A DNA stretch of 64,000 nt from Clostridia bacterium (GTDB lineage Bacteria > Bacillota > Clostridia > Oscillospirales > SIG627). Below, piece after piece: positions 34,179 to 36,670 of this stretch. Made by a program: the position numbers and the translations under genes. The notes under the pieces are model-generated. The model saw nothing but the letters and a program-made list of their open reading frames with translations, did not search any database and was not told the DNA's origin. Each line of letters opens with the position of its first letter. The stretch's first letter is position 1. The stretch covers positions 1 through 64,000 of the forward strand of contig JAFWZW010000023.1 of the NCBI GenBank assembly GCA_017517325.1, in the 5' to 3' direction.

Positions 34179-35630
34179 TTATTCAGCGTCTTTTTTTGCT
34201 GCGGGCTTCTTTGCAGGTGCCTTCTTGGCGGGAGCTTTCTTTTCGCCCTCAGCAGCCTTCTTTGCAGGTGCCTTCTTGGCAGGAGCCTTCTTTTCACCCT
34301 CAGCAGCCTTCTTTGCGGGTGCCTTCTTTGCGGCCTTTGCTTCAGCGGGTGCTTCGGTGATCTCGGCGCTTGCCTTGATCAGTTCAACTGCCTTGCGTGC
34401 GGAAACGTCCTTGCGGATCACTTCCTCGGGGATGTATTCCTTAGCCTTCTCAACGTCGATCTGGTAGGATTCGGCAACTCTTGCGTATTCAGCTTCAACC
34501 TCTTCTGCGCTGATCTCGAAGTTTTCAGCCTTTGCAATGGCTTCCAGAGCCAAAGTAGCCTTTACCTGACGCTCTGCCTGAGGACGGAGATCCTCCAGCA
34601 TCTTCGCTTTGGTCATGCCGGAATACTGCAGATACATTTCCATAGAAATGCCCTGCTGCATCATACGGTTCTCGTAATCGTTGAGCATATTTTCGCACTC
34701 ATTGTCAAACATACAGGTGGGAATGTCACCCTCGATGGCGTCAATAATTGCGGTGAGAAGCTGCTCCTCCACCATATGATCGGCTTCGTCTGCATTTCTC
34801 TTTTCTATTTTAGCCTTGATATCCTTCTTATATTCAGCCAAGGTATCAAATTCGGAAACGTCTTTTGCAAATTCATCGTCAAGCTCGGGGAGCTCGATCT
34901 TTTCAATGCCGTTCAATACGACCTTGAATACGGCTTCCTTGCCTTTCAGCTCTTCGGCGTGGTAATCCTCGGGGAAGGTAACGGTAACGTCAAAAGCATC
35001 ACCGATCTTGTGACCTACGATCTGTTCCTCAAAGCCGGGGATAAACTGACCGCTGCCCAGTCTCAGCTTGTGAGCCTCGCCCTTGCCGCCTTCGAAAGCC
35101 TTATCGCCGATGAAGCCTTCGTAATCGATGATGGCAACGTCATCATTTTCAGCCGCTCTGTCGGTAACCTCAATGGTTCTGGAGTTTCTCTGACGAACTC
35201 TCTCAAGCTCGGCGTCAACTTCAGCTTTTGCTACCTTCTTTACGGTCTTTTCTGCTTTGATTCCTTTGTAAGAAGAAACGGTGATCTCGGGCTTGGTCCA
35301 ATATTTTGCGGTCAAAGCTACACCGTTTTCATCGATGTCGCCCAGTTCCAATTCAGGCTGGCTGACCACTTCAATGCCTGCTTCCTTAACAGCTTCATCC
35401 AATACGCCGGGGAGAAGTGCGTTCAATGCATCGTCATAGAACACACCCTTGCCATACATCTTCTCGATGATGGAGCGGGGGGCTTTGCCCTTACGGAAGC
35501 CGGGGATGGAAATACGGGAAGCCTGCTTCTTGTAAACTTTGTTGACTTCGGCTTCAAAATCTGCCGCGGGGATCTGGATCTCCAGGATCGACTGATTCTT
35601 TTCGCCATTCTTTACGCTTTTCAAACTCAT
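34179..35630 (-). CDS. tig: Trigger factor with Lys/Ala/Pro-rich C-terminal extension
   Basis: The start at 35630 (MSLKSVKNG) has AGGAG upstream; an in-frame GTG three codons earlier overlaps that site. The 483-residue protein has the ribosome-binding signature GFRKGKAPRSIIEKMYG, a PPIase domain (EGFIGDKAFEGGKGE...LGSGQFIPGFEEQ) and the helical C-terminal chaperone domain, ending near residue 430. It then carries an unusual basic tail of about 60 residues built from 17-residue repeats containing EGEKKAPAKKAPAKKAA, like histone H1 tails. The tail is encoded by 51-bp direct repeats. It folds nascent chains at the ribosome exit; the tail's role is unknown. Confidence 0.96.
   Translation of the reverse strand: MSLKSVKNGEKNQSILEIQIPAADFEAEVNKVYKKQASRISIPGFRKGKAPRSIIEKMYGKGVFYDDALNALLPGVLDEAVKEAGIEVVSQPELELGDIDENGVALTAKYWTKPEITVSSYKGIKAEKTVKKVAKAEVDAELERVRQRNSRTIEVTDRAAENDDVAIIDYEGFIGDKAFEGGKGEAHKLRLGSGQFIPGFEEQIVGHKIGDAFDVTVTFPEDYHAEELKGKEAVFKVVLNGIEKIELPELDDEFAKDVSEFDTLAEYKKDIKAKIEKRNADEADHMVEEQLLTAIIDAIEGDIPTCMFDNECENMLNDYENRMMQQGISMEMYLQYSGMTKAKMLEDLRPQAERQVKATLALEAIAKAENFEISAEEVEAEYARVAESYQIDVEKAKEYIPEEVIRKDVSARKAVELIKASAEITEAPAEAKAAKKAPAKKAAEGEKKAPAKKAPAKKAAEGEKKAPAKKAPAKKPAAKKDAE
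34206..34333 (-). repeat. 51-bp direct repeats encoding the basic tail of trigger factor
   Basis: Near-identical 51-bp units begin at about 34206, 34257 and 34308 (the third is partial). Each encodes 17 residues, so changes in copy number stay in frame. Confidence 0.85.
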
Positions 35631-35909: not shown

Positions 35910-35938
35910 TTTACAAAAAAGTGAACATGTGCTATTAT
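35910..35938 (+). promoter_or_regulatory. Promoter of the tandem-repeat RNA
   Basis: TTTACA (35910-35915), exactly 17 bp and TATTAT (35933-35938). The predicted start is near 35945. Confidence 0.8.
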
Positions 35939-36000
35939 GTAGGTGCAAGGAAGAAAGAAACAAAAACGAAGGGTGATCGCCCTTCACCGAATCCAAAAAA

Positions 36001-36409
36001 GGAGGTACGGTCCCAAGATCTGAATACAGTGACCCCAAAGAAGAGGAGTAATGAAAACGTAAATCTCATCAGGAGGTACGGTCCCAAGGAAAATCAGAAA
36101 GTACCCCGAATGCTCGGAGTAACGTAAGGCCTGAAACCCTTTAAGATTTATAGGAGGTACAGTCCCAAAATCTGATCGACAGTGACCCAAATGATTGGAG
36201 TAACCCACAAAACAGGAGGTACGGTCCCAAGGCAAATTTTAACTAAACCCGAAAGCTCGGAGTAACCCAAACGAGATTCAGACCTTTACAATCTTTTACC
36301 GCCAAGCGGAACACCCATCGTGGATCAAAAAAATGAAGTTATCGTGAAAAGGCAGTGATCTCAAACACCAAAATTTAATATAGATATCCTAACAAGGAGG
36401 TACGGTCCC
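36001..36409 (+). repeat. Five-copy GGAGGTACGGTCCC repeat
   Basis: Copies start at 36001, 36072, 36153 (with A for G at the ninth base), 36215 and 36396, spaced 71, 81, 62 and 181 nt apart. Spacing is irregular and not a multiple of three, which argues against a protein repeat and against a CRISPR array. Confidence 0.9.
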
Positions 36410-36429
36410 GTGAACAGCGAGGAACAGTG

Positions 36430-36477
36430 ATGACCCTGATTCGTGAGAGAATAATACGAATCAGGGTCATTTTTTTA
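36430..36477 (+). terminator. Terminator of the tandem-repeat RNA
   Basis: ATGACCCTGATTCGT (36430-36444) and ACGAATCAGGGTCAT (36456-36470) form a perfect 15-bp stem followed by TTTTTT. Confidence 0.92.
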
Positions 36478-36542
36478 CCCTTGCAATTCTTTGGTTTCTG
36501 TGTTACAATTCCCCTTGGGTAAAACCCAAACAAAAGAATAAA

Positions 36543-36670
36543 CTGCAGTTCATCGAGTGATCGTAGTCGGGCTTTTCAGCTCGGGGATAAGGAAATCACG
36601 GTGAAAATCCGTAGCAACCGCCATTGCCGTAATGGGAAACCTAAGTCGGAATGCTTATCGATCTGCAGGC
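36543..36670 (+). promoter_or_regulatory. Cobalamin riboswitch aptamer
   Basis: The core elements of the cobalamin class are present in order: GGGGATAAGGAAATCA, GGTGAAAATCC (36599-36610 region), AGCAACCGCC and CCTAAGTCGGAATGC (36640-36655). CTGCAG near 36543 and again near 36664 can close the outer stem. It precedes a DUF4430 lipoprotein and an ECF S component, both commonly linked to corrinoid uptake. Confidence 0.85.

Follow-up and report, generated by a model that had tools for sequence, protein, structure and literature searches.

We found that a locus of about 530 nt in a 64,000-nt stretch of Clostridia DNA (the window) carries a tandem array of short modules. In each, a Shine-Dalgarno (SD) core (GAGGUACRGUCC) is followed, after a single spacer base, by a start-position codon and, in most cases, by an early in-frame stop. 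This anatomy is under selection. Our preferred reading, to which we give a probability of about 0.45, is that such arrays form a class of trans-acting RNA genes whose tandem abortive mini-ORFs would dock ribosomes, with the net effect of a ribosome decoy or buffer.

At the window locus, GGAGGTAC(A/G)GTCCC occurs in five exact copies, one at the start of each unit in Table 1, as the initial annotation of this DNA had described. When up to two mismatches were allowed over the whole window, shuffled sequences contained 0.56 matches on average, and none of 100 shuffles reached five. Four of the five copies open units of ~54 nt that end in GGAGTAA. This motif had been ascribed to every unit; the fifth copy lacks it and continues into the terminator, sharing one base of its TGA with the terminator stem. 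The region had been described as ~530 nt without a convincing gene, and we likewise found no long open frame through the repeats, at the window locus or in the other arrays.

Table 1. Features of the array locus, in window positions; each unit begins with its repeat copy.
Feature	Position	Strand	Details
Promoter	35910..35938	+	TTTACA-17-TATTAT with TG extension; promoter scan; TTTACA-17 promoter also in six genus relatives
5' hairpin	35968..35985	+	GAAGGG/CCCTTC; read directly from sequence
Unit 1	36001..36052	+	SD core 36002-36013; start-position codon AAG 36015; in-frame TGA 36021 (codon 3) and 36030 (codon 6), GGAGTAA after
Unit 2	36072..36123	+	SD core 36073-36084; AAG 36086; stem 36106-36117 (CCGA/TCGG); late in-frame stop 36125 (codon 14)
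Unit 3	36153..36204	+	SD core 36154-36165; AAA 36167; in-frame TGA 36173 (codon 3); stem 36187-36198 (CCAA/TTGG)
Unit 4	36215..36266	+	SD core 36216-36227; AAG 36229; in-frame TAA 36244 (codon 6); stem 36249-36260 (CCGA/TCGG)
Possible linker hairpin	36299..36309	+	CCGC/GCGG, between unit 4 and terminal unit; read directly from sequence
Terminal unit (unit 5)	36396..36430	+	SD core 36397-36408; GTG start 36410; mini-ORF MNSEEQ; TGA 36428-36430
Intrinsic terminator	36430..36477	+	perfect 15-bp stem (arms 36430-36444/36456-36470) and T run

The array RNA is apparently an autonomous gene with its own promoter and terminator. Both elements had been proposed to enclose the region, and both are present (Table 1). 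Taken alone, the window promoter match is weak because the region holds three promoter-like sites against 1.6 in shuffles; its conservation in relatives is the better support. Over the whole set, 61 of 77 arrays had a promoter score of at least 10 (of 12.5), against 7 of 385 background windows, and a terminator was detected in 57 of 77 arrays with a simple finder run without a background. The predicted transcript is ~530 nt long at the window locus; for 46 arrays the median length is 375 nt.

We searched the DNA of 99 genomes and recovered the locus in all seven of them that belong to this genus (the window's own included) and in none of the other 92. The genus loci hold 3 to 7 units behind a common TTTACA-17 promoter, with a terminator at the end. 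The array is conserved in relatives, as had been anticipated for a genuine RNA: its units lack a long ORF there too, and five of the genus genomes carry a paired stem of varying sequence. We also scanned a collection of 84,980 species, one genome per species, for two cores 41-71 nt apart, a pattern for which we estimate a chance expectation of ~0.2, ignoring base composition. The scan returned 50 stretches, 48 of which were judged arrays by inspection: four lie in three genomes of this genus and the remainder in other Clostridia. Lachnospiraceae records account for 22 of the 48; others come from Roseburia, Pseudobutyrivibrio, Eubacterium ramulus, Oscillospiraceae and unclassified Clostridia. 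The two rejected stretches are L072, which reads like a leucine-rich-repeat protein, and L046, which lies inside an 836-aa ORF and has the look of a protein repeat. Their resemblance to protein repeats would suit the idea that the arrays are what is left of a decayed gene for a repeat protein, or products of chance. However, most arrays are strongly promoted, and early in-frame stops and unequal spacing are found over 75 arrays; we consider this explanation extremely improbable.

A sequence model of 106 units matched all 19 carrier genomes tried, some of them with two or three separate loci. These second or third loci, seen in several genomes (L101-L108), hold an array that is shorter, or just one recognised unit, and mostly have a strong promoter match and a terminator. 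With strict filters, the model matched at least 24 of a sample of 295 Lachnospirales genomes, L125 and L129 being doubtful; the two-core pattern found at least 12 among 392 genomes, against 3 of 392 for a reversed control pattern. A covariance model of the genus units gave a match at E<=1 in 34 of 99 genomes. Of the 11 out-of-genus loci inspected (L030 and L031 not among them), only L027 had a core with at most two mismatches, and that core stood alone.

For the counts that follow, units with more than two core mismatches, containing N or cut at a contig end were dropped. Two viral matches were left out (L082, which looks coding, and L083, which has the same spacing as L082), as were second copies of genus loci (L032, L038, L078 and L079). 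The array set excludes the census loci L109, L114, L124, L126, L128 and L132-L138 and the loci of the pattern census; the 254-unit frame count excludes L125 and L129, each with a single unit. L046, L062 and repeated downstream sequences were left out of the downstream-sequence set.

Within units, the frame set by the core and the start position is conserved. Of 254 units (75 arrays), 220 had a stop within six codons in the start frame; the other frames gave 106 and 57, and 200 shuffles a mean of 76 and a maximum of 95. Because units of one array or of related arrays are not independent, we also counted one unit per sequence cluster and obtained 37.7 of 44 versus 16.9 and 11.8; the start frame had the highest stop fraction in 30 of the 44 clusters. 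Without the largest cluster, the six-codon counts were 135, 64 and 36 of 162. Control GAGGT sites outside the arrays at the same loci showed no frame preference (22, 24 and 18% of 249). The usual distance from the start position to the in-frame stop is 2-5 codons, and units without a stop in codons 1-4 had one at codons 5-8 in 64 of 84 cases versus 9 and 10 (cluster means 0.71 versus 0.15 and 0.15; 24 clusters). In this genus, 22 of 32 units stopped within eight codons, versus 6 and 8 in the other frames; among the other ten, the stop comes at codon 11 or 12 in six, at codon 13 in one and at codon 14 in one, and two units of the relative L002 have no stop in range. The window itself has stops at codons 3, 3, 6 and 7 in units 1, 3, 4 and 5, unit 2 being the exception with its stop at codon 14. 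A frame extending upstream of the core was considered and rejected, being merely somewhat more open than the other frames. The initial annotation had called the repeats out of frame with one another. This holds between units; within a unit, core, start position and stop share a conserved frame, and homologous copies keep this frame inside their units with none running through the repeats. The conserved frame strengthens the view that ribosomes read the modules and weakens the view of a structured, non-coding RNA.

We scored the start-position codon of all 254 units. ATG was the most frequent (100), followed by AAG (73), CCA (20), ACA (16) and AAA (13), with TTG (10), ATC (9), CCG (7), ACG (4) and GTG (2) being rarer, so that 142 of the 254 units have no ATG, GTG or TTG at this position. 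These start-less units keep the in-frame stop equally well (30.7 of 34 clusters versus 7.0 and 10.7 in the other frames), and on average their SDs are the stronger ones. GGAGG is present in 97 of the 142 start-less units versus 44 of the 112 units with a start codon; the 113 units without it have another base before GAGG. Of the 22 clusters with units of both kinds, 16 showed stronger predicted pairing with the 16S 3' tail for start-less units (Wilcoxon p=0.0017), and six, the window's own cluster included, showed the reverse. For the tail we used what we take to be the 16S 3' sequence, 16S genes being found in none of seven carrier genomes. SDs at least as strong as that of the weakest window unit precede 13 of 49 window genes, making the modules good, not exceptional, in strength. 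A more extended pairing of the core with the 16S tail, a possible 6+5 bp duplex, was rejected, as 11-30% of random 7-mers did equally well. The spacer ACRGUCC is conserved beyond the needs of an SD.

Some arrays also suggest an order of the two kinds of unit. In six of them (L034, L037, L039, L050, L059 and L080), runs of AAG units have ATG units on both sides or ahead of them, an arrangement that may be preserved. In five arrays of one cluster that includes Pseudobutyrivibrio (L049, L066, L115, L127 and L131), nearly all internal start positions are CCA and the recognised terminal unit uses TTG in four of the five, a case of lineage-specific start-less codons.

Drop-off minigenes and ribosome-clearing short peptides are precedents for a reading in which the product would be the mini-peptides or the corresponding peptidyl-tRNAs. 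Such a product would account for ORFs of a few codons behind strong SDs and for the recurrence of the terminal peptides MDEIV and MDSIV in four arrays (L033, L074, L119 and L130). It would leave over half of the units without the start codon it requires, and the internal peptides, as read directly, look unconserved. We therefore regard it as very unlikely.

Terminal units could be defined in 25 of the 77 arrays, some of them related, as those with a terminator within 45 nt of the last core by the simple finder. ATG, TTG or GTG occupies the start position in 20 of the 25, and 15 have their in-frame stop no more than 4 nt from the terminator stem, versus 4 and 1 in the other frames. The arrays might thus sense ribosome occupancy: initiation, above all on the terminal mini-ORF, would set RNA stability or termination, and the RNA or its read-through would report translation capacity. 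Terminal start codons and stop-terminator spacing are kept despite varying ORF length, as this reading predicts, and in five genus genomes many internal stops (the TGA in GTGACCC) were read directly at the base of a hairpin. As a cis attenuator, however, the sensor needs a co-directional target. Of 41 arrays, the artefact L046 among them, 13 are followed by an ORF in the same direction, and neighbouring genes have no family in common; we think a sensor rather unlikely.

What lies beside the arrays varies. In the window, Pfam supports three genes on the opposite strand, clpX, clpP and tig. Downstream of the array lie a DUF4430 protein and a 176-aa protein that matches no Pfam family. The locus had been placed between tig-clpPX and a cobalamin riboswitch. 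The genes are as stated, and the riboswitch corresponds to an AdoCbl-II match at 36578-36664 that scores 33.4 bits, slightly short of the gathering score of 36.5. A promoter-like site at 36481-36509 stands, together with this match, ahead of the DUF4430 and 176-aa proteins. On the minus strand, tig encodes a Lys/Ala/Pro-rich C-terminal tail through a 51-nt tandem repeat (34206-34333), and this trigger factor tail reminds us of histone-H1-like tails. Proximity to tig is not general: tig lies near the array in three of the seven genus genomes and on another contig in four (these are drafts, with the array mid-contig in at least two). Elsewhere the neighbours share no family. A Pfam scan covered 61 of the 83 nearest ORFs (heuristic calls of at least 90 aa), and no family occurred in more than four of the 61 proteins. 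Promoters, terminators, the lack of a recurring neighbour family and the small share of co-directional next genes together suggest that the RNA most likely acts in trans.

Is the RNA structured? The stem that follows the repeat in units 2, 3 and 4 (Table 1) does change in the compensatory manner reported at the outset. When 15 units from five genus genomes are compared in a fixed register, 22 of the 30 pairings possible at its two variable pairs are formed, a count reached by 74 of 10,000 re-dealings. Likewise, the 5' hairpin reads GAAGAAC/GTTCTTC in the relative L002, and in several genus loci this hairpin varies in sequence with pairing kept. The broader claim of a structured RNA is not clearly borne out. 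Taken as a whole, the RNA of the window locus is no more stable than shuffled sequences (z -1.2; 12 of 100 shuffles folded as well), and the second stem after the repeat was observed in this genus only. Special accessibility of the SD was rejected, since SD and spacer pair as they do in shuffled contexts in 31 arrays (those of the 44 cluster representatives with at least two units and no N). Some structure may nevertheless exist, since overall the arrays show slightly more pairing than shuffled sequences (mean unpairedness z -0.66, p=0.005).

The conservation of ACRGUCC beyond the SD would be accounted for by a protein decoy, in which an RNA-binding protein recognises GAGGUACRGUCC and is titrated by the modules much as CsrA is by CsrB; the tandem-module architecture is also that of known sponges. 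This reading leaves the in-frame stops and the terminal start codon unexplained, and we judge it unlikely. CsrA itself is an unlikely target because its gene was found in none of the seven genus genomes (drafts, one 94% complete and the others 63-88%) and was not found in 12 of the 19 others, with seven carrying it, and because 113 of the 254 units lack GGAGG. The same near-identical 12-nt repeats, in an autonomous and strongly promoted gene, could alternatively be seeds of a base-pairing sRNA directed against one or more mRNAs. Here too the reading frame is left unexplained. Moreover, a seed conserved across unrelated genera needs an equally conserved target, and the sole one that we can name is the anti-SD. 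We hold an sRNA of this kind to be highly improbable.

Taken together, the frame, the terminal start codon and the trade-off between SD strength and start codon point to the ribosome as the target. Ribosome sequestration had been raised in the initial annotation and stays a serious hypothesis, now through repeated SDs and a conserved frame within units. We infer transcription, docking, abortive translation and a physiological effect as follows. A strong promoter would produce a short transcript that usually carries several modules, on which 30S subunits would dock through their anti-SD. Modules with a start codon would initiate and then release the ribosome early; on start-less modules, 30S subunits would for the most part stay bound, and the in-frame stop would serve as a safeguard. 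In this way the RNA would work as a ribosome decoy or, less probably, as an occupancy sensor. As a decoy or buffer in trans, the RNA would leave fewer free initiating ribosomes whenever its promoter fires. More tentatively, the arrays may be a class of ribosome-sponge RNAs, whose tandem, strongly expressed sites, many start-less and nearly all abortive, would retain initiating ribosomes, or gauge their number, and thereby adjust translation as a whole in Clostridia of the gut and rumen. If confirmed, this would mean regulation of free ribosomes or initiation factors at the RNA level. The occurrence of arrays in many Clostridia, including the cultured Eubacterium ramulus and Pseudobutyrivibrio, makes the idea directly testable. 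Start-less modules that keep their stop also pose the question of what reads a frame beginning with AAG, CCA or ACA.

The locus had been called unrecognised, and our searches agree. Rfam release 15 has no match at gathering in the window array or in the arrays of 17 other loci, and up to E=10 the window array gave implausible matches only. Among the papers listed by searches of open PubMed Central full text, no title or abstract opening describes such an RNA; subscription papers and preprints were outside this scope. Known sponge RNAs, CsrB/RsmZ and CrcZ among them, target either RNA-binding proteins or small RNAs; we know of none whose modules are miniature translation units.

We compared the arrays with four known systems. 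Like CsrB/RsmZ, they appear to be autonomous RNAs with many copies of a short motif, here presumed to titrate a translation factor. Unlike CsrB/RsmZ, 19 of 26 carriers have no CsrA that we could find, many cores lack GGA (a CsrA sponge should have a GGA motif in every module, and GGAGG is present in 141 of 254), the modules have in-frame stops and the ribosome is the presumed target. The RNAs of type III toxin-antitoxin systems, ToxI for example, also consist of tandem repeats with a promoter and a terminator. In the arrays, by contrast, units diverge within one array and mini-ORFs are present; a ToxN/TenpN/CptN-type toxin was found neither beside the window array nor among the 25 of 82 neighbour families listed (from 61 of 83 ORFs). 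The bar minigenes of phage lambda consist, as the modules do, of an SD and a very short ORF, whereas an array is usually tandem, a dedicated RNA gene with its own promoter and terminator, and often start-less. Leader-peptide attenuators have a short ORF whose stop lies at a terminator, and the terminal unit resembles them in its start codon and in its short ORF ending at the terminator; the arrays differ in having no consistent co-directional downstream gene and, usually, further modules in front. Our best reading is that the arrays represent a new RNA class, CsrB-like in architecture and minigene- or leader-peptide-like in its modules, which lacks at least one defining feature of each family that could be tested.
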